Shown here one piece after another: positions 39,312 through 61,138 of a DNA stretch of 64,000 nt. The stretch covers positions 62,001-126,000 of the forward strand of contig DATMAB010000013.1 in NCBI GenBank assembly GCA_035573675.1, read 5' to 3'. The notes below the pieces were generated by a model. The model saw nothing but the letters and a program-made list of their open reading frames with translations. It was not told where the DNA came from and searched no databases. Positions within the stretch are counted from its first letter, which is position 1. Every line of letters begins with the position of its first letter. Origin of the DNA: Terriglobales bacterium (lineage in GTDB: Bacteria > Acidobacteriota > Terriglobia > Terriglobales > Acidobacteriaceae). Position numbers and translations under genes: made by a program.

Positions 39312-39350
39312 CAGTGGTCAGTGGTCAGTGGTCAGTTGCCAGTGGTCAGA
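39312..39350. repeat. CAGTGGT tandem repeat
   Basis: CAGTGGT recurs four times with small changes (CAGTGGTCAGTGGTCAGTGG, then TCAGTTGCCAGTGGTCAG). The reverse complement type is found at 44750-44775 upstream of kdsA. Nothing else is seen in the gap 39307-39451. Confidence 0.8.
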
Positions 39351-39451
39351 AAAAAAAACGTGATGCAGCTGACCCTCGGGCTTCGGAGTGCTCTCGTACC
39401 CACGTCTCCGCGAAACGGCATCGCGTAGGTGTGGGGCCCTTTCAGGCTTGC

Positions 39452-41654: not shown

Positions 41655-41659
41655 GGGAA

Positions 41660-41741
41660 AGCGATAAGCAGTAAGCCAAGAGCCAAGAGCTTATTGCTTA
41701 TTGCTTATCGCTTATTGCTTATCGCTTACTGCTTATTGCTT
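41660..41741. repeat. GCTTATCGCTTATTG tandem and inverted repeat island
   Basis: AAGCGATAAGCAGTAAGC at the start and many copies of GCTTATTGCTTATCGC in the opposite sense after it can form a long stem. Related copies occur at about 53025-53040, 56553-56575, 61085-61110 and 63500-63530. Confidence 0.8.
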
Positions 41742-42747: not shown

Positions 42748-44634
<1,887 letters not shown>

Positions 44635-44749
44635 ACTTCATCGCCGGGCCCGCAGAGTTCGCCGAGACAACGAAAAAGCCGCTAGACTATGTTTTGTGGG
44701 CGCCCGAATTGGCTCTGCGATCTCGGCGTCCTCGGCGGTGAATGTTTTT

Positions 44750-44775
44750 CTGACCACTGGCCACTGACCACTGAC
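44750..44775. repeat. CCACTGACCACTGAC repeat abutting kdsA
   Basis: CTGACCACTGGCCACTGACC and ACTGAC follow in tandem. This is the reverse complement of the CAGTGGT repeat at 39312-39350. It ends exactly where the recognisable kdsA reading frame begins. Confidence 0.75.
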
Positions 44776-45643
44776 TACTTCTTTCCAAGTCGGCAACGTC
44801 ACCATCGGCGGCGACAGGCTCTTTCTCATCGCCGGCCCGTGCGTGATCGAAGGCGAGGAGCACGCCATCAAGATGGCGGAGTGCATCGCCGGCGTCGCCA
44901 GGGCGATGGATCTGCCCTACATCTTCAAGGCCTCCTACGACAAGGCCAACCGCACGTCCCTTTCCAGCTTCCGCGGGCTGGGCGTGACCGAAGGCCTGCG
45001 TATCCTGCGCCAGGTAGCGGAGACGGTCAAAATCCCTGTTCTCACGGACGTGCACGAAGCCAGCGATGTTCCCCGCGTCGCCGAGGCCGTCGACGTGCTC
45101 CAAATCCCCGCCTTCCTCTGCCGCCAGACCGACCTGCTGCTGGCCGCGGGGCACAGCGGCCGCGCCGTCAACGTCAAGAAAGGGCAGTTCGTCGCCCCCT
45201 GGGACATGCGCCACGCCGTGGAGAAAGTCCAGTCCACCGGCAACCAGAAGGTCTTCGTGACCGAGCGCGGCAGTTCCTTCGGCTACAACAACCTCGTCGT
45301 GGACATGCGCTCGCTGCCCATCATGCGCAGCTTCGCTCCCGTGGTTTTCGACGCCACGCACTCCGTGCAACTACCCTCGGCCGGTAGCGCCGGCGTCTCG
45401 CCGGCTGGATCGCGGGCGTCCTCGCCCGCGACCGATGTCGCTGTTTCCGGCGGCCAACCCGAGTACATCCCCGTCCTGGCACGCGCCGCCGTGGCCGCCG
45501 GCTGCGACGGCGTTTTCATGGAAGTCCACGACAACCCCGCCCTGGCCAAATCCGACGGCCCCAACGCGCTCGACCTGCTCAAGCTGCGGGACGTGCTCAA
45601 GGAACTGCTGGCCGTGCGGAGGGCGGTTGAGAGGAGCGCCTAG
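44771..45643 (+). CDS. kdsA: 3-deoxy-8-phosphooctulonate synthase, with in-frame repeat insertion and no normal start
   Basis: About 290 residues, joining phosphoenolpyruvate and arabinose-5-phosphate into KDO-8-P. Motifs: [49 protein letters not shown]-like [56 protein letters not shown] and [19 protein letters not shown]. Between the in-frame stop at 44765 and GPCVIE there is no ATG, GTG or TTG; CTG at 44771 is the only start-like codon and sits in a repeat. A stretch of about 22 residues ([20 protein letters not shown] and neighbours) between HSVQLP and GGQPEYIP is encoded by two perfect palindromes and is not part of usual KdsA. kdsD follows. Confidence 0.88.
45389..45430. repeat. double palindrome inserted in frame in kdsA
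   Basis: GCCGGC-GTCTC-GCCGGC at 45389-45405 and CGCGGGCG-TCCT-CGCCCGCG at 45411-45430. The reading frame passes through without a stop and adds a low-complexity Ser/Ala/Gly loop to the protein. Confidence 0.85.
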
Positions 45644-45681
45644 ATGTTCGTCCTTAGGATCCTCGATACAACGAGTCCCCA

Positions 45682-45730
45682 GCCCGCCTCCGGCGGGCGC
45701 CATTTGAGTGAGCCCAGCGCGTAAGCGCTG
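45682..45730. repeat. two small palindromes between kdsA and kdsD
   Basis: GCCCGCC-TCC-GGCGGGC at 45682-45698 and CAGCGC-GTAA-GCGCTG at 45715-45730. They resemble the insertions in kdsA in size and GC content. There is no T-run, so they are not typical terminators. Confidence 0.65.
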
Positions 45731-45817
45731 CGTACCCGTACGCCCAAGAAACTCCCGAGCCCCGGAAGGGCCGCACCCGGCCCCGCCCTTGCCCTTTTTG
45801 CTACCATCTCATTCTCC

Positions 45818-46813
45818 ATGAAACACGTGGGCGAAGAGGTGGTTCGGGTCGAGGCGGAAGCGCTGCGCGCGCTCGCCGACCGCATTGCCGGTCCCATGGC
45901 CCAGGCCTTCGAGGGCGCCGTCGACCTGCTCTACTCCTGCGCCGGGCGCGCCGTCGTGACCGGCATGGGCAAGAGCGGCATCGTGGCGCGCAAGATCGCG
46001 GCCACGCTCAGCTCCACCGGCACCCCGGCGCTCTTTCTGCACCCGGCCGAGGCCGTGCACGGCGACCTGGGCATGCTGGCGCGCGGCGACGTGGTCCTTG
46101 CCCTTTCCTCGAGCGGCGAGACCGAAGAGATCCTTAATCTCCTGGCCAGCATCAAACGTCTCGGACTGAAGCTCATCTCCATGACGGGCGATCGCATGTA
46201 CGCAGCCGCCGATACCCCCGCACCCGCCTCCACTCTGGCCCGTGCCGCCGATGTCGCCCTCGACTGCTCCATCGACCGCGAAGCCTGTTCGCTTGGCCTG
46301 GCGCCCACGACTTCCACTACGACCATGCTGGCGCTGGGCGACGCCCTGGCCGTGGCTCTGGCCCAGCGTCGCGGCTTCAAGGAAGAGGACTTCGCCGACC
46401 TGCATCCCGGCGGCAAGCTGGGCAAGCGCCTGTCGCGCGTGGGTTCGCTCATGCACACCGGCGAGGCGGTCCCCGTAGTAGCGCCCTCGGCCAGGATGCC
46501 CGATGTCATCTACGAGATGTCGCGCAAGGGTTTGGGCGTGACCACGGTGGCCGAGGACGGCCGCCTGGTGGGCATCATCTCCGATGGCGACCTGCGCCGC
46601 CTGCTGGAGAAGCGCGGCAAGCAGGTGCTGGACCTCACCGCCGCCGACTGCATGACCCGTTCGCCCAAGACCATCGGCCCGGAAGAGTTCGCCACCGCCG
46701 CCCTGGCCGTGATGGAGCAGAAGAAGATCACTTCGCTGGTGGTCGTAGACGGCAACGGCCGCCTGCAAGGCATCCTGCATCTGCACGACCTGTGGGGAAC
46801 GGAGATGGTCTAG
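45818..46813 (+). CDS. kdsD: arabinose-5-phosphate isomerase (KdsD/KpsF family)
   Basis: 331 residues. SIS domain (about 30-180) with VVTGMGKSGIVARKIAATLS, TPALFLHPAEAVHGDLGML, LALSSSGETEEILNLLASIK and APTTSTTTMLALGDALAVAL, then two CBS domains (about 210-325: VVAPSARMPDVIYEMSRKGL; EEFATAALAVMEQKKITSLV). It converts ribulose-5-phosphate to arabinose-5-phosphate, the substrate of KdsA. The pairing with kdsA supports KDO synthesis and so an LPS-type outer membrane. KdsC and KdsB are not in the window. Confidence 0.96.
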   Translation: MKHVGEEVVRVEAEALRALADRIAGPMAQAFEGAVDLLYSCAGRAVVTGMGKSGIVARKIAATLSSTGTPALFLHPAEAVHGDLGMLARGDVVLALSSSGETEEILNLLASIKRLGLKLISMTGDRMYAAADTPAPASTLARAADVALDCSIDREACSLGLAPTTSTTTMLALGDALAVALAQRRGFKEEDFADLHPGGKLGKRLSRVGSLMHTGEAVPVVAPSARMPDVIYEMSRKGLGVTTVAEDGRLVGIISDGDLRRLLEKRGKQVLDLTAADCMTRSPKTIGPEEFATAALAVMEQKKITSLVVVDGNGRLQGILHLHDLWGTEMV

Positions 46814-46942
46814 CCCATTGATTCATTGAATCATTTGCTCATTGAATCATTGAAAACCGCCGGCCCGGCGAGTAGTTGATACATCCAACGGGTGAGTGCT
46901 TCTCAATGATTCAATGAAAAAATGAATCAATGATTCAATCCC
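46814..46942. repeat. TCATTGAATCATTG-type inverted repeat island
   Basis: ATTGATTCATTGAATCATTT and further ATTGAATCATTG copies at 46817-46855 are mirrored by AATGATTCAATGAAAAAATG and AATCAATGATTCAATC at 46905-46940. It fills the gap between kdsD and the next small gene. Confidence 0.8.
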
Positions 46943-47181: not shown

Positions 47182-47254
47182 GCCGTCATCCTGAGTGAGG
47201 GAGGGCTCCCGCGCGCCTGCTCAAGCGCGGGAAACCCCGAGCGAAGGACCTCGG
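47182..47254. repeat. dispersed GTCATCCTGAG element, copy 1
   Basis: GCCGTCATCCTGAGTGAGGG followed by a TCCCGCGC/GCGCGGGA hairpin, then GAGCGAAGGACCTCGG. The same layout recurs at 52915-52986. It lies between two genes and has no frame of its own. Confidence 0.8.
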
Positions 47255-52914: not shown

Positions 52915-52986
52915 GCCGTCATCCTGAGCGAGGGAGGCTTCCCGCCCGCTCTTTCCAGGGCGGGAAACCCGAGCGAAGGATCTCGG
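52915..52986. repeat. dispersed GTCATCCTGAG element, copy 2
   Basis: GCCGTCATCCTGAGCGAGGG, a hairpin of TTCCCGCCC / GGGCGGGAA, then GAGCGAAGGATCTCGG. It matches copy 1 at 47182-47254 in both ends, with different hairpin arms. It starts 11 bp after the stop of the preceding gene. Confidence 0.85.
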
Positions 52987-53035
52987 GTTTGTTTTCCTGA
53001 CGACTGGCGACTCCCAACTGCTAACCGCTTATCGC

Positions 53036-55042
53036 TTATCGCCTCACTGCCTCGACCTGAACCCGCGCATCGTTGTAGCACGCCTGCCCCGCCACCTCGC
53101 TCACCGTGGCCGGACACAACGCGGTGGCAGTGAACCCGTTCAGCGAAGCCCTGCGCCACGCGCCCTTGGGCATCGAGACCACGCCCGGGCGCACGCGCCC
53201 GCTCACCTTGGCGCGGCACACCACTTCGCCCAGGCGGTTGAATACGCGCACGCGGTCGCCCTCGCCGATGCCGCGCGCCGCGGCGTCGTCGGGATGGAGC
53301 GTCAGGCGCAACTCCGCCAGGTTGAACTCGCCCAGCGTGCTCGAGATCAATCTCGACGTCGACGGGCTGATCATCGCCAGCGGATGCTCGGCGTCTTCCA
53401 CGGGCGCGTATCGGTACGGCGCCGCACCCAGGCACGCCGGCGCCAAGTGAATCTTCTTGTCCGCGGTCAGAGGATAGATGTCCTGGAACAGCACCGGCCC
53501 TTTGCCGGGGAAGTCATAAGTCTCGCAGCCGCCCGCCGCCAGCTTCTCCGCCGCCGGATGTTTCCCGCTCATGTGCGTGGCCGCCGCCAGGTTCCGCACC
53601 CAGGTCGCATCGTCCCAGGCAAACGGAGCGTCGGTGAACCCCAGGGCGCGCCCCAGGGCGCCGAACACTTCGATGTTCGAGCGCGCCTCGCCGCGCGCCG
53701 CGATCACCGGACGCACGCCGCCTACCACGTAGCTGCCGTAGGCTTTGCGCACGTCGTAGTGTTCCAGGAAGGTGGTCGCCGGCAGCAGGATGTCGGCGTA
53801 CGCAGCCGTATCCGTCATCACCTGCTCGTGCAATACCGTAAACAGGTCTTCACGACTCAAGCCGCGCAGCACTGCCTTCTGGTCGGGCACCGTCGCGGCC
53901 GGATTGCAGTTGTAAATGAACAGCGCCTTCACCGGCGGATCGAGCCGGTCGTTCAGAAGCTCGCCCAACTGCGTCATGTTCAGCTCACGCGTCTGCCACT
54001 TCAGCTCGCCCAGCAGCCGCGTATTGTCGAGCTTTCCGGCGCCGCCGTTGCTCAGCGTGTATCCGCCGCCGCGCACCCCGAACTTGCCCAGCAGCGCCGG
54101 CATGGCCAGCACCGCCGCCATCGCCTGCCCCGCGTTGCGATTGCGCTCCACGCCCCAGCCCAGGCGCAGCAGCGCGGGCGAAGTCTCCGCCCACTTGTCC
54201 GCCAGCTTGCGGATACCATCCGCCGCAACGCGCGCCGTCTGTGCCGCACGTTCCAGCGGCCACTCCCGTGCCGCGGCCAACAGGGTATCAAGGCCTGTTG
54301 CATGCTTCGCCAGGAACTCGCGGTCGAAGCGGCCCCGCTCCTCCCAATAGTGGATCATCCCCAGCGCCAGCGGCAGGTCGGCGCCGGGATACACCGGCAG
54401 ATGCAGGTCCGTTTCGGCATCGGAGAAATTCTGGGCCGGATCCACCGTGGCGATGAACGCGCCCCGCCGCTTGGCCTCGCGCAGGAACGGCACCAGGTGG
54501 ATGTTGCTGGCCTTGGGGTTCGCGCCCCAGATCACGATGAAGCGCGCGTGCACGAAATCTTCGAAGGCCACGCCCGGCATCTTGCCGTACATCCCCAGGG
54601 CGACCTCCGTGGCGTGCGCGGCGCATAGCGTGCGCCCCAGCCGCGACGCACCCAGCCGCGCGAACAGCAGGTCGTCGAGCGTGCCGTCCGTCATCCAGCC
54701 GTTCGACCCTCCGTAGTGATACGGCAGGATGGCTTCCCCGCCCCACTTCTTCTGCACCTCGCGGAACCGCGCCACGATTTCCGCTATCGCCTCATCCCAG
54801 GAGATGCGCTCGAACTTCCCCGCGCCTTTCGGCCCGGTGCGCCGCATGGGATAAAGCAGCCGCTCGCCGCTGTACACCCGCTCGCCGAAGCGGCGGACTT
54901 TGGAACAGATGAACCCGCCCGTCACCGGATGGCCGTTTTCGGCCGCGCCGATGGAAGTGATTTTGCCGTCCTCCACCGTCACGCCCAGCGCGCACGTATC
55001 CGGACAATCCAGCGGACAGGTCGTTTTCAGAGTCTCGGGCAT
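53036..55042 (-). CDS. molybdopterin-dependent oxidoreductase (DMSO reductase superfamily)
   Basis: 668 residues from the ATG at 55042 (MPETLKTTC). The N-terminal 4Fe-4S motif is TTCPLDCPDTCALGV with the fourth Cys in GGFICSK. The body shows YPMRRTGPKGAGKFERISWD, ISWDEAIAEIVARFREVQ, YGGSNGWMTDGTLDDLLFAR, VIWGANPKASNIHLV, LRLGWGVERNRNAGQAM, LFIYNCNPAATVPDQ and, near the end, the molydopterin-binding C-terminal domain (RLTLHPDDAAARGIGEGDRV). No Tat signal is evident, so it is probably cytoplasmic. Similar to formate dehydrogenase-like or thiosulfate/polysulfide-type FdhF-like proteins; substrate unknown. No electron-transfer partner is adjacent. Confidence 0.9.
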   Translation of the reverse strand: MPETLKTTCPLDCPDTCALGVTVEDGKITSIGAAENGHPVTGGFICSKVRRFGERVYSGERLLYPMRRTGPKGAGKFERISWDEAIAEIVARFREVQKKWGGEAILPYHYGGSNGWMTDGTLDDLLFARLGASRLGRTLCAAHATEVALGMYGKMPGVAFEDFVHARFIVIWGANPKASNIHLVPFLREAKRRGAFIATVDPAQNFSDAETDLHLPVYPGADLPLALGMIHYWEERGRFDREFLAKHATGLDTLLAAAREWPLERAAQTARVAADGIRKLADKWAETSPALLRLGWGVERNRNAGQAMAAVLAMPALLGKFGVRGGGYTLSNGGAGKLDNTRLLGELKWQTRELNMTQLGELLNDRLDPPVKALFIYNCNPAATVPDQKAVLRGLSREDLFTVLHEQVMTDTAAYADILLPATTFLEHYDVRKAYGSYVVGGVRPVIAARGEARSNIEVFGALGRALGFTDAPFAWDDATWVRNLAAATHMSGKHPAAEKLAAGGCETYDFPGKGPVLFQDIYPLTADKKIHLAPACLGAAPYRYAPVEDAEHPLAMISPSTSRLISSTLGEFNLAELRLTLHPDDAAARGIGEGDRVRVFNRLGEVVCRAKVSGRVRPGVVSMPKGAWRRASLNGFTATALCPATVSEVAGQACYNDARVQVEAVRR

Positions 55043-56479: not shown

Positions 56480-56553
56480 AAGACCACGTCCGCTTCCTCG
56501 CGACCCAAGCGCAGCGAGGGAGCAAGCGCCCGTAGGGCCGCAACGCTCATCGC

Positions 56554-58500
56554 TTACTGCTTATCGCCGCCTTCCCGCAACGCGATCTCCGGCACATACA
56601 CGCCTCGTAGGTCCCGGCTCCACCACGCGCCGGTTTGCCGGCGCTCCTCACGCGTCGTGAACCGATACTCATAGAACCGCGCCCGCACGAACCTGGGCGG
56701 CTTCTCGGGAAACGGATTCTTCTCCAGCAGAGCCAGCACTTCCGGCCGCCCCTCGAGCAGCCGCACCATCAGGCGGATGACCCAGGGATGGTTGCGCGGG
56801 CTGCCCAGCGCGGCGAACCACATCTGCCAGTCGAGGCGCGGCTGGTGCGGCGCCACCCAACGCGGCCGCCGCATCACGTCGCCCGGCTTGTACTTGAATT
56901 CGTACTCCTGCCAGGTGACGCCGTCGTTCGAGCCTTCGAGCACGATCTCCCCGCGCGACGTGGTCATCACCGCGAACAACCCGTAGGTGTTCACCAACCG
57001 GAACGGATACACGCGCACCAGCACGGCATACCCCGTCTGCGACTCGACGTGAAAGAACATCTCCGCCATCTGGTATCCGCTCACCAGCAGGACGAACGAG
57101 GCCAGGAGCGACCCCACGACCATTCTCCACCGCGATACACCACTCTTTCGAAGCGCCGGGGCGGGAGTTGTGTGAGGGGGCACCACCGCGGTTTCTCTTT
57201 GAAAGGGCGCGGCTTCGGCCGCGCCGATAGAAGCCACAAGAGTCAGGGGCTTTAGCCCCTGAGGCAACACCCACCGGGACACACACCGCGCAAGCAGCTT
57301 GTCATCCAAAAGAAAAAAGCACAGCGCCACCGTCAACAGGTTGAAGAACGTGTAGTTCCCGGTCACGAAGATCAAACCCTGCAGCCCGATGCTCGCCAGC
57401 GCGGCGAAGTGCCGCACCCGCCGTGGCGCAAAGAACAGGAACGGAACCGCCAGTTCCGCCGCGAACATCATCACCGCCTCCAGCTTGTGGAACTCGAGCG
57501 GCAACTGGTGCATGTACCACGCCGGGGGCGTGGGCAGCGGCTGCGTCTCGTAGTGATAGCGCAGCGCGGCCAGCGCTCGCCACGCCGGGTCGCCGCTCAG
57601 CAGCTTTACCGCCCCGGACGTGAAGATGAGCCGGAAGAGCAGCCAGCGAAACAGCCAGCGCGTGACCCTTCCCGCGTCCAGAAAGATAGCCAGGAAGCCT
57701 GCTTCGAGCAGCAGCGCGTCCCACTGGAAGCTCATGAAGTCCTGGCCCGCATTCGCGAGCGACAGGTAGAGAGCGAACAGCGCCAGGCACACCACGGCGC
57801 GCGCCGCTGCGCTGATCCTCCCCGTTCCCGCAAGGAAGAAGAGCGCGAGCGCCAGCACGACGCCGGCGATGCACACGGCGGTGAGCGCGCGGTCGTTCGC
57901 GTCCAGCCAGAAGACGGTGGGCAGCGCCCAGTACGCCTGCGCCCCCAGCGCTTCCTTCGCCCGCGGCAGCAGTTCTGCGACCGGCAGCACGCCGTGCTCG
58001 CCGATCAGCCCGGTCACCTGCAGGCCGAAGGAGGCGAAGGCGATGGCGTAGATCGCCGCCAGCGCGCGCATGAAAAGCCACGGACCCAGCACGAACGTCT
58101 GCGGACCGAGCGGCAGCCCCCACAGCAGTTTCGTCGCGCGCATCGCCAGCCCACGATGCCTCGCTACCCATCCGTAGAAGGCTTCCGTCAGCGGCTCGGC
58201 CAGCGGCACGTGCTGGTACGCCCAGAGCATCCATCCCTTGCCGCGCACCGGTGCAAGCAGCGTGAACACCGCTTCGGCGCCGCGCAGCACCCGTCCGTGC
58301 GGCTCGATGAGCGTCACCGCGGCGGCAAAGTCCTCCCGCGGGACCTGCGGAAACCGCTCCCCGACCTCCTGGAACGCCACGTACTCGACGCTCTCCCCGG
58401 TGAGCTGCTTCCAGGATTCGACCCAGGCGCGGCAGAATCCGCAACCGCCGTCGAACACCAGCACCCGCCGTCCTTCGCCCTCTTGCAAGTACAGGCTCAT
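56554..58500 (-). CDS. fusion of DCC-type thiol oxidoreductase domain and lipase maturation factor
   Basis: 648 residues. Residues about 10-120 are a DCC/DUF393 domain with FDGGCGFC (Cys20 and Cys23 as redox pair) and YVAFQEVGE. From about 150 on it is a lipase maturation factor (LMF1/2-like) membrane protein with HTTM-type features: VLPVAELLPRAKEALG, SFQWDALLLEAGFLAIFL, LKLLSGDPAW-like VKLLSGDPAWRALAALRYHY, ETQPLPTPPAWYMHQLPLEF and VFFHVESQTG..., then FKYKPGDVMRRPRWVAPHQP, PRLDWQMWFAALGSPRNHPW. In the middle a stretch of about 45 residues (RWVLPQGLKPLTLVASIGAA and following) is encoded by a palindromic repeat element and is not native. Likely an exported-lipase folding factor; the fusion pairs thiol chemistry with the LMF. 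Confidence 0.88.
   Translation of the reverse strand: MSLYLQEGEGRRVLVFDGGCGFCRAWVESWKQLTGESVEYVAFQEVGERFPQVPREDFAAAVTLIEPHGRVLRGAEAVFTLLAPVRGKGWMLWAYQHVPLAEPLTEAFYGWVARHRGLAMRATKLLWGLPLGPQTFVLGPWLFMRALAAIYAIAFASFGLQVTGLIGEHGVLPVAELLPRAKEALGAQAYWALPTVFWLDANDRALTAVCIAGVVLALALFFLAGTGRISAAARAVVCLALFALYLSLANAGQDFMSFQWDALLLEAGFLAIFLDAGRVTRWLFRWLLFRLIFTSGAVKLLSGDPAWRALAALRYHYETQPLPTPPAWYMHQLPLEFHKLEAVMMFAAELAVPFLFFAPRRVRHFAALASIGLQGLIFVTGNYTFFNLLTVALCFFLLDDKLLARCVSRWVLPQGLKPLTLVASIGAAEAAPFQRETAVVPPHTTPAPALRKSGVSRWRMVVGSLLASFVLLVSGYQMAEMFFHVESQTGYAVLVRVYPFRLVNTYGLFAVMTTSRGEIVLEGSNDGVTWQEYEFKYKPGDVMRRPRWVAPHQPRLDWQMWFAALGSPRNHPWVIRLMVRLLEGRPEVLALLEKNPFPEKPPRFVRARFYEYRFTTREERRQTGAWWSRDLRGVYVPEIALREGGDKQ
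57206..57260. repeat. double palindrome inserted in frame in the lipase maturation factor gene
   Basis: GGCGCGGC-TTCG-GCCGCGCC at 57206-57225 and AGGGGC-TTTA-GCCCCT at 57245-57260. On the coding strand they translate to a low-complexity insert without stop codons. Confidence 0.85.
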
Positions 58501-58867: not shown

Positions 58868-61087
58868 ATGCGGAAAGCCATGTTCTTGACAGTCGTATTG
58901 CTGCTGTTGCTGCCGTTGGTGCTGATGTCGGGTGCGGTGGCCGCACAGACCAGTGTGGCTACGAACACGGCACAGACGAGCGCCGCGGCGGCCGGGAGCG
59001 CAACGGGCGCGAGCGCCACCACGAGCGCGCCTGCGCCGACGCCGCCCAAGACCAAGATCGCCATCGTGGAGGACACCCTGCACGGACACAAGATCGTTGA
59101 TCCCTATCGCTACCTCGAGAACGGCGACGACCCTGCGACGCAGGAGTTCGGCCGCGACCAGTACGCTTACACGCGCGCGGTGCTGGATCCGCTGCCGGGG
59201 CGCGACCGGATGCGGGCGCGGCTGACCGAGCTGCTCTCCATCGGGACACTGGGCGTCTCGCCGCAAATCGCGGGCGGATGGTATTTCTACACGCGGCGCG
59301 ACGCCGGGCAGAACCAGCCGGTGCTGTACGCGCGCAAGGGTGTGGACGGCCGGGACCGCGTGCTGGTGGACGTGAACAAGATGGCCGCCGATGCAACCAT
59401 CGCGCTCGACTACTGGACGGTTTCCGACGACGGCAAGTACGTGGTCTCGTTTACCTCGCCGAGCGGCACCGAGCACTGCGTGATCCGCATCCTGGAGACG
59501 GCCACCGGCCAGCAGCTTCCGGAAGAGATCTACGTAGGGCGCGGGCGCAGCCTGGCCTTTCTGCCGGACAATTCGGGCTTCTACTACACGCGCTTCCCGA
59601 AGAAAGGAACGGTGCCGGCAGGCGAGGAGATGTACAACCCGCGCATCTTCTATCACAAGCTGGGCACGGCGCCGGACGGCAGCGAGGACAAGCTGGTGTT
59701 CGGCGAGGGCCTGCACCCGCAGCACTGGCCGAGCGTTTCGCTTTCCGAAGACGGCCGCTGGATGCTGATCCAGATCTTCCAGGGGTGGACGAAGACGGAG
59801 CTGAAGATCAAGGACCTGAAGTCGGACGGCCCGTTCGTCGACGTCACCAGCGGCAAGGACTTCCTGTACACGGGCTTCGTTTACAAGGGTGACGTCTACA
59901 TCCACACCAATGAGGATGCGCCGAAGTATCGCGTCTTCCGCGTGGCGGCAGAGAATCCGGCACGCACCGCCTGGAAGGAAATCATCCCGGAAACCGAGAA
60001 CGTGCTGCAGACAGTGGCGCTGGTCGGAGGCAAGCTGGTCACGGAATACCAGAAGAACGCGGCCTCGCTGGTAAAGGTGTTCACGCTCGAAGGCAAGCCG
60101 GCGGGCGAGGTGCCGTTGCCCACGCTGGGCACCGTGGGCGGCATCGGCGGGCAGCACGACAGCCCGCAGGCGCTGATCAACTTCCATTCCTACACGGTGC
60201 CGCCGGTGTTGATTCGCTACGACATCGCCGACGGGAAGACGGGCGTGTTCGCGAAGATCGAGGCGCCGATTGATCCGTCACCCTACGAGGTCAAGCAGGT
60301 CTGGTACACCTCGAAGGACGGGACCAAGGTGCCGATGTTCATCGTGAGTCGCAAGGGGCTGAAGCTCGACGGCAACAATCCCACGCTACTCTACGGCTAC
60401 GGCGGCTTCCAGCAAAGCATGACGCCGCAGTTCCGGCGGTCGTTGTTCCTGTGGCTGGACGCGGGCGGCGTGTACGCCGAGGCCAACCTGCGCGGCGGCT
60501 CCGAGTTCGGCGAAGAGTGGCATCGCGCGGGGATGCTGGAGAAGAAACAGAACGTCTTCGACGACTTCATCGCCGCGGCCGAGTACCTGATCCAGGAGAA
60601 GTACACGAACAAGGACCGGCTGGCGATCCAGGGCGGGTCGAACGGGGGCCTGCTGGTGGGGGCGGCGCTGACGCAGCGTCCGGAACTGTTCCGCGCCGTG
60701 GTGTGTCAGGTGCCGCTGCTCGACATGCTGCGCTACCAGAACTTCCAAATCGCCAAACTCTGGATTCCCGAATACGGCTCGGCGGAAGACCCCAAGCAGT
60801 TCGATTTCCTGTATGCGTACTCGCCCTACCATCGCGTGAAGGAGGGCACGGAGTATCCGGCAATCCTGATCACGACGGCGGAGAGCGATACGCGCGTCGA
60901 TCCCATGCACTCACGCAAGATGACGGCGCGGCTGCAAGCGGTGGCAAAAAACGGCGCCGACCGGCCCATCCTGCTGCGCATCGAGCCCAAGGCCGGGCAC
61001 GGACAGGGCAAGCCGGTGAGCAAGCAGATCGAGGAAGGGATTGATGTGTGGTCGTTCCTGTTCTGGCAGTTGGGTGTGAAGCAGTAA
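58868..61087 (+). CDS. prolyl oligopeptidase (S9A family), exported
   Basis: 739 residues from the ATG at 58868, chosen because [20 protein letters not shown] gives a good signal peptide; an ATG eight codons earlier exists. An Ala/Ser/Thr-rich spacer (about 25-60) leads to the propeller domain ([52 protein letters not shown]). The alpha/beta-hydrolase domain has [20 protein letters not shown] (Ser about 588), [16 protein letters not shown] (Asp about 672) and [12 protein letters not shown] (His about 710), the full triad. It cleaves after proline in short peptides. A terminator follows after 26 bp. Confidence 0.95.
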
Positions 61088-61113
61088 GCGATAAGCGATA
61101 AGCAATAAGCGAG

Positions 61114-61138
61114 GGGCGCCGGGAGGCGCCCTTTTTTT
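61114..61138 (+). terminator. intrinsic terminator after the prolyl oligopeptidase gene
   Basis: GGGCGCC-GGGA-GGCGCCC followed by TTTTTTT. The preceding bases 61085-61110 are a copy of the AAGCGATAAGC repeat. Confidence 0.88.

Follow-up and report, generated by a model that had tools for sequence, protein, structure and literature searches.

The 64,000-nt window analyzed here (the whole stretch of DNA under study) carries a kdsA gene with two palindromes inside its coding sequence. The question raised by this locus is how palindromic DNA came to lie in frame in an essential gene and what it means for the encoded enzyme. Very probably, a non-autonomous and dispersed GTAG-tagged REP of about 48 nt has inserted into the loop L7 coding region of kdsA and is tolerated there.

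The kdsA gene and its palindromic element

The kdsA gene (3-deoxy-8-phosphooctulonate synthase) is located at 44771..45643 on the plus strand, and the ORF reading of the window gave an uninterrupted frame for it between CTG 44771 and the stop codon ending at 45643. No in-frame ATG, GTG or TTG was found between TGA 44765 and the conserved N-terminus of KdsA (codons from 44765 to 44780 read), and the start was therefore placed at CTG 44771, which is likely the sole plausible one. The missing ATG, GTG or TTG start is a mild argument for decay of the gene and thus against the explanation given above. The CTG codon lies within a CTGACCACTGGCCACTGACCACTGACTACT repeat (44745-44782), of which an inverted copy is present at 39320-39354. 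At the same place, the kdsA gene of the sister genome (G001) has a different tandem repeat, CTGGAAACTGGAAACTTGAAACTGGAAACT.

Apart from the insert, the protein had been described as intact in the initial annotation, which agrees with the results obtained here. KdsA scored above both equivalog cut-offs of NCBIfam (NF003543, 386.5 bits; TIGR01362, 371.6 bits). The AlphaFold2 model, built from 34 sequences, has a normal KdsA fold around the insert with a mean pLDDT of 89.3, and only residues 200-218, at the insert, are below 50. The best Foldseek match of the model was the KDO8P synthase 2nxg (E 6.5e-35), and the Aquifex aeolicus structure 1lrq was found at rank 6. The residues C20, H193, E247 and D258 are invariant in 34 of 34 sequences. 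We take these four to be the metal ligands, and C20 to be the cysteine of the metal-dependent type.

Outside the loop, the comparison of the window and sister kdsA genes resulted in a dN of 0.047, a dS of 0.521 and a dN/dS of 0.09, a ratio that averages both lineages and is no proof of selection after the insertion. This low value indicates that purifying selection has acted on the gene. A second KdsA was not found in the window genome; the other match (36% identity over residues 6-194, E 8.5e-21) is taken to be a DAHP synthase. Among the named genomes, the best match to the sister KdsA was Candidatus Sulfotelmatobacter with 74% identity, and judged by these named relatives the window genome probably belongs to the class Terriglobia of the Acidobacteriota.

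The element itself is 49 nt in length (45384..45432, plus strand), as delimited by its dispersed copies and its fold, with a 3′ boundary that is accurate to a few bases. It starts with the tetranucleotide GTAG (45384..45387), which is unpaired at the base of hairpin 1 in the MFE structure. Hairpin 1 (45389..45405) consists of the 7-bp stem GCCGGCG/CGCCGGC and the 3-nt loop TCT, and hairpin 2 (45410..45431) of the 9-bp stem TCGCGGGCG/CGCCCGCGA and the 4-nt loop TCCT. Both palindromes had been recognized before and are indeed present, each once in the 64-kb window. An unpaired GTAG ahead of a 7-bp stem is the arrangement of a GTAG-tagged REP, for which GTAG or a close variant of it and stems of 5-13 bp are described.

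When 53 nt with the element were folded as DNA, a free energy of −24.3 kcal/mol was obtained compared to −14.05 ± 2.14 kcal/mol for shuffled sequences (z −4.79), and none of 200 shuffles folded as well. For the stem of 9 bp, an equally good palindrome was found in a fraction of 0.01 of 500 shuffles. The consensus of the element is free of stop codons in five of six frames, and the peptide encoded by the kdsA copy reads as rich in Ala, Gly, Pro and Ser. Within the window, no second copy of either palindrome core could be identified at fewer than 3 mismatches, and the window alone could therefore not reveal that the element is a repeat. In addition, cmscan of the region 44500-46000 (E up to 1) yielded no Rfam family for the element, its one match lying elsewhere.

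That match, to the Acido-Lenti-1 RNA at 45681-45732 on the minus strand, is sub-threshold (17.1 bits with a gathering value of 37, E 0.55). In the same segment, 3′ of kdsA, two more palindromes were seen by eye. Further downstream, an ORF at 45818..46813 (plus strand) provides context only; by its sequence it looks like kdsD/kpsF (arabinose-5-phosphate isomerase), whose product presumably acts one step earlier in the Kdo pathway. It is directly followed by a 51-nt A+T-rich inverted repeat (46817-46939) that is 80% complementary, with arms 21 nt apart. Other repeats in the window are short tandem 7-mers resembling GCTTATCGCTTATTGC, which are present in both direct and inverted orientation (41659-41741, 53019-53047, 56545-56567 and 61079-61117) and a 56-nt direct repeat at 47182-47237 and 52915-52970, which is 82% identical and starts with GCCGTCATCCTGAG.

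The loop between VQLP and GGQPEY (45377..45448, plus strand) comprises 24 residues. The KdsA of the sister genome is 91% identical to that of the window, and its loop SASADGKPVS has 10 residues, which is 14 fewer. The insert had been said to be in frame and to add about 22 residues; the frame holds, and the count has to be corrected to a net gain of 14 residues. This corresponds to 42 nt, a multiple of three, and when the DNA was aligned with that of the sister and of genome G114, it appeared as one 42-nt gap across the element. The gain is slightly shorter than the element of 47-49 nt. A target-site duplication was not seen in the window sequence or in the alignments of the relatives.

In 156 scanned kdsA loci (L020-L049 and L057-L182), the core of the element, with up to 3 mismatches, was found inside kdsA in the window genome only. 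Outside kdsA and within the kdsA locus, two close copies were found in G051 and one each in G002 and in one named genome. In G051 (L034), the two GTAG cores (0 and 3 mismatches) are on opposite strands and, judged by position, just upstream of kdsA.

The dispersed family and its copy in mutS

The window genome (G000) is a draft of 3.16 Mb in 28 contigs. Copies of the element were counted with the 22-nt core, allowing up to 3 mismatches, and the reversed pattern served as control. In total, 22 copies including the one in kdsA were found compared to 2 for the control, and a unique palindrome that arose by chance was therefore rejected. A BLAST search with an 82-nt query resulted in 19 places at an E of 0.01 or better, the query included. 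For 19 of the 22 genome matches, the sequence starts with GTAG.

Among the relatives, 40 copies were counted in G004 (control 3), 26 in G100 (1) and 17 in G118 (0), which represent three other genera of the family, so that these genomes and the window genome contain the tens of copies described for REPs; but the sister G001 has only 4 (1) and G026 none (1). The family is therefore uneven across the relatives. In a plasmid collection, four records gave weak partial matches to the element, none of them covering 80% of the query.

The copies have the general structure GTAGCGCCGGCG-n-CTCGCCGGC-TGTC-, followed in some by a second hairpin. A perfect hairpin-2 stem of at least 7 bp was identified in 11 of 25 distinct matches of the window genome, a set that allows up to 4 mismatches and in which some matches are offset or due to chance. 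The stems of hairpin 2 vary yet pair with themselves (GCGCGGGCA, CGGCGGCA, GCGGCGGCA and TGCGGGCG). In hairpin 1, the pair 7-19 is C-G in 43 of 50 copies and G-C in 4 of 50; swaps at other positions are fewer, and several copies break single pairs. Stem variants thus keep their complementarity, as is described for REPs. Within the window genome, 18 of the 22 matches have no other match inside 100 nt, and one locus (L006) contains an inverted pair of copies with GTAG on the outside.

Ten longer ORFs spanning copies in the window genome were searched against Pfam. Domain sequence on both sides of the copy was found only in MutS; in the kinase and HAD/NAD frames the element is located ahead of the domains, and seven frames are free of domains. 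The search for further copies thus brought the demonstrated intragenic copies in this genome to two, namely kdsA and mutS.

The copy in mutS (L017, contig C15) is in frame and is read from the opposite strand. The MutS domains I to V were identified by Pfam, with domain V ending at the edge of the locus. Domain II (132 of 133 positions) is stretched across 164 residues, and the element corresponds approximately to residues 210-223 (...GARGQDARGESPALPSG...). Between the aligned parts on both sides of the element there are 49 residues in this MutS compared to 15 in E. coli MutS. At the same place, the sister MutS reads QHSAISDQPHPAAEGSAADAVADV and lacks the element. The core was not found in the other MutS loci fetched; for G100 and G114, two of the eight genomes searched, MutS was not matched within the limit used.

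Both strands of the element are used, since kdsA reads SAGVSPA and mutS its complement, RGESPAL. The mutS copy is about 9 nt shorter than the consensus between the hairpins. So either kdsA and mutS acquired members of one family, oppositely oriented, once the two species had separated, or both copies were lost in the sister. Because the sister is without either of them, both are probably recent insertions.

The stretch of MutS around the element is also variable in length in other genera. Beside the REP, the MutS of the window genome (L017/L223) contains SAISNQ from a TCAGCAATCAGCAATCAG tandem repeat, and the version of the sister (L224) is SAISDQ. This variable part of mutS thus seems to have taken up a second kind of repeat.

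By analogy with published REP work, a RAYT-like HUH (Y1) transposase that acts on hairpins in single-stranded DNA may have moved the element into the L7 region of kdsA. In the seven Y1_Tnp loci of the window genome (3.2-3.3 kb each, up to 5 mismatches), other palindromes were present, but the GTAG hairpin was not found, and neither was the arrangement known as REPtron, in which such a hairpin flanks a RAYT gene.

Six pieces of the Y1 domain were compared to NCBIfam, without L054, which has a stop in its stretch. Three were above the IS200/IS605 cut-off, one (L055, 76.9 bits) was below the REP_Tyr_transpos cut-off of 80, and two gave nothing. On contig C7, the adjacent genes L050 and L053 code for Y1 transposases and closely resemble each other, and a GAGTCCCGAAGGGACGGCAC palindrome immediately precedes each ATG.

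Loop L7 in the relatives and in the enzyme

In the model, the insert loop is located between the strand 187-190, the seventh of eight main strands, and the helix 226-238. From this barrel order, the loop was assigned as putative L7 (β7-α7). According to the accessible part of a previous study, L7 is tied to the binding of A5P, and its truncation compromises catalysis, while the study is inconsistent over which enzyme type relies more on L7 (PMC6650799). The proximity of the insert to the active site, as suggested in the initial annotation, is consistent with this assignment.

Loop lengths in the relatives were determined from match coordinates in 240 family genomes (150 + 90) among the matches listed. 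In 6 of these 240 (G000, G055, G148, G159, G103 and G175), the query stretch is exceeded by at least 9 residues, and in each of the six the excess residues were found in L7 when the sequence was read. A further 26 genomes had weak, broken or missing matches; 16 of their loops were readable, one of which is long (G101). Long L7 loops are thus present in 7 of 256 family genomes measured, among the matches listed.

For 70 loops parsed by direct reading, 62 have a length of 6 to 14 residues compared to 24 in the window, and eight from seven genomes (G055 twice) have at least 19. The relatives therefore do not share a loop of this length that is free of palindromic DNA. In this reading, six loci out of 76 could not be parsed (L170, L171, L172, L174, L178 and L181), and G055, G014 and G010 are present twice. 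In the named genomes, 73 of 80 loci were parsed (7 unparsed), and none exceeds 25 residues over the measured stretch; 55 have exactly 20, and 16 loops of 14-16 residues were probably clipped by the looser search word.

In five of the seven long-loop genomes, which five represent four genera, the loop contains a palindrome, and four kinds unrelated to each other can be distinguished. G055 and G148 share CCCACCC...GGGTGGG in L7 (shuffle fraction 0.004 each). In G159, the palindrome is GGACAGCCG-CCCT-CGGCTGTCC (shuffle fraction 0.004). In G103, ATCGCGC...GCGCGAT was found within a longer imperfect inverted repeat, and its shuffle fraction of 0.062 is unexceptional if taken alone.

These palindromes also differ in their dispersal. 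The G159 palindrome occurs 15 times in its own genome, kdsA included, and 35 times in the congener G115, with zero control matches. For the G103 insert, 15 places were found in G103 (E of 1 or better, kdsA included) and 22 in the congener G154, many of them explained by a 44-nt core. The pattern of G055 and G148 was found 7 times compared to 5 for the control in G055, which is weakly above the control, and 13 times compared to 4 in G148. The exact word was found in kdsA of these two genomes only, and the related GGTGGCCCACCCTTTCGCC is common to several genomes. In each case, a congener has a kdsA gene without the respective insert (G115 for G159, G154 for G103, and G194 for G055 and G148).

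As unrelated palindromes have entered the same loop in three other genera, L7 appears from these sequences to be a permissive landing site for palindromes. A more far-reaching idea is that L7 acts as a natural landing pad in Terriglobia, and that mobile palindromes, in addition to point mutations and small indels, drive the evolution of lid length, so that A5P binding would be measurably altered in some lineages; this is doubtful and is put forward only tentatively.

The insert could be adaptive or regulatory, in that a longer active-site lid would tune A5P binding or the hairpins would act in the kdsA transcript. The described role of L7 in A5P binding and the loss of catalysis on its truncation (PMC6650799) fit this idea, as do the repeated hits at the same site and an RPE in the guanylate kinase of Rickettsia, which altered substrate affinity according to the part of the report available (PMC2229807). 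Against this, the inserts differ between lineages in sequence, length and peptide, 62 of the 70 loops read are without an insert, the frame and strand in which the element is read differ between kdsA and mutS, and the insert is modelled with a pLDDT below 50. Taken together, an adaptive or regulatory role is improbable. A functional benefit is possible but unsupported, since frames, strands and peptides differ between the cases, and judged by sequence the insert most likely has a nearly neutral effect on the enzyme.

L7 could also have been extended by slippage or duplication, the GC-rich coding DNA being palindromic by chance. Such ordinary variation does occur, given that 62 of the 70 loops parsed range from 6 to 14 residues, and given the long loops of G101 (L169, 38 residues) and G175 (L139, 22 residues), which have no palindrome beyond that of shuffled sequences. 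For the kdsA of the window it is nevertheless highly improbable, because the insert matches hairpin 1 of a 22-copy family exactly, the family extends into hairpin 2 and none of 200 shuffles folds as well.

The loops of G101 and G175 were not counted as mobile palindromes and were taken as ordinary length change. No dispersed copies of the G101 insert were found; the only other match at an E below 0.01 is one place in G152, which is aligned with sequence flanking the insert. The G175 loop has an apparent internal duplication (AGSDN/AGSDD).

A local assembly or binning artefact that spliced a repeat from elsewhere into kdsA would be conceivable in a draft of 28 contigs, as short repeats can mislead assemblers, and is extremely unlikely given an element of about 48 nt that is shorter than ordinary reads, the frame kept in both kdsA and mutS, and unrelated palindromes in the same loop of other genomes, one of them shared by G055 and G148.

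The insertion of a non-autonomous GTAG-tagged REP that is tolerated in L7 thus remains the preferred explanation. Its survival may be due to the five stop-free frames out of six, the net length that is a multiple of three, the Ala/Gly/Pro/Ser-rich peptide and the variable length of L7. The gene would have remained functional after the insertion, and the insert would have stayed for this reason.

Comparison with known systems

The element had been regarded as an analogue of the Rickettsia palindromic elements (RPE) in another phylum. The sequences support this view of an in-frame mobile palindrome in an essential gene. In common with the RPE of Rickettsia and the WPE of Wolbachia, as far as these are described in the accessible parts of the sources (PMC3767692; PMC2229807), small palindromes have inserted in frame into essential genes and have left a working protein, here in the conserved genes kdsA and mutS. 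The view is refined here with respect to the type, the element being a GTAG-tagged REP and not an RPE. In these sources, RPE are 100-150 bp (PMC3767692) or 105-146 bp (PMC2229807) in length compared to about 48 nt here, and PMC3733652, in the part available, treats RPE-4 and RPE-6, which are short, as CGTC-tagged REPs. With its length of about 48 nt and the tag GTAG, the window element is set apart from the RPE by these descriptions.

REPIN or BIME elements with their RAYT (PMC3116915; PMC8266576, both as partly available) share the form of the REP dimer with the inverted GTAG pair at L006. Unlike these, 18 of 22 matches in the window genome are solitary within 100 nt, and no RAYT gene flanked by the element was found in this genome.

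The closest description is that of the GTAG REPs (Di Nocera, De Gregorio and Rocco 2013, PMC3733652). In the accessible text, GTAG REPs are reported from several phyla, with some copies in frame inside genes, and the number of such in-frame GTAG copies is highest in Opitutus terrae. In-frame REPs outside Rickettsia are named for Opitutus terrae, Thauera, Thioalkalivibrio and others, repair genes are prominent among the REP-bearing genes, and recB of two Xanthomonas species carries different REPs at about one site (PMC3733652). The main text names Acidobacteria once, for TIRYT transposases. The sections of its text considered here do not name kdsA or mutS. Among the papers listed from the open-licence PMC literature, from which subscription journals are largely absent, none was found that deals with palindromic elements of kdsA or with REPs lying in frame in genes of Acidobacteria.

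The results add the Acidobacteriota and a lipopolysaccharide enzyme to the known range of REPs inserted in frame. Since four palindromes have entered one loop, with an insert-free congener each time, a natural series is available for testing change versus tolerance, and matched orthologue pairs with and without the insert exist in four genera. For annotators, it follows that genuine coding sequences do contain REPs and that mobile DNA can be part of the loops when such proteins are aligned.

As far as the available text of PMC3733652 allows the comparison, the window element has in common with the GTAG REPs a short GC-rich hairpin with an unpaired GTAG at its base, the dispersal, the complementary stem variants, the inverted pairs and the in-frame copies in conserved genes including repair genes. 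The inverted pair at L006 resembles the head-head dimers described there. In contrast to these REPs, the window element has a second, untagged hairpin in 11 of 25 matches of its genome, the host is acidobacterial, and one loop has been entered by several unrelated families. In-frame REPs in conserved genes outside Rickettsia have thus already been published (PMC3733652, in the part available), and the repeated use of one loop is the most interesting side of the kdsA locus.
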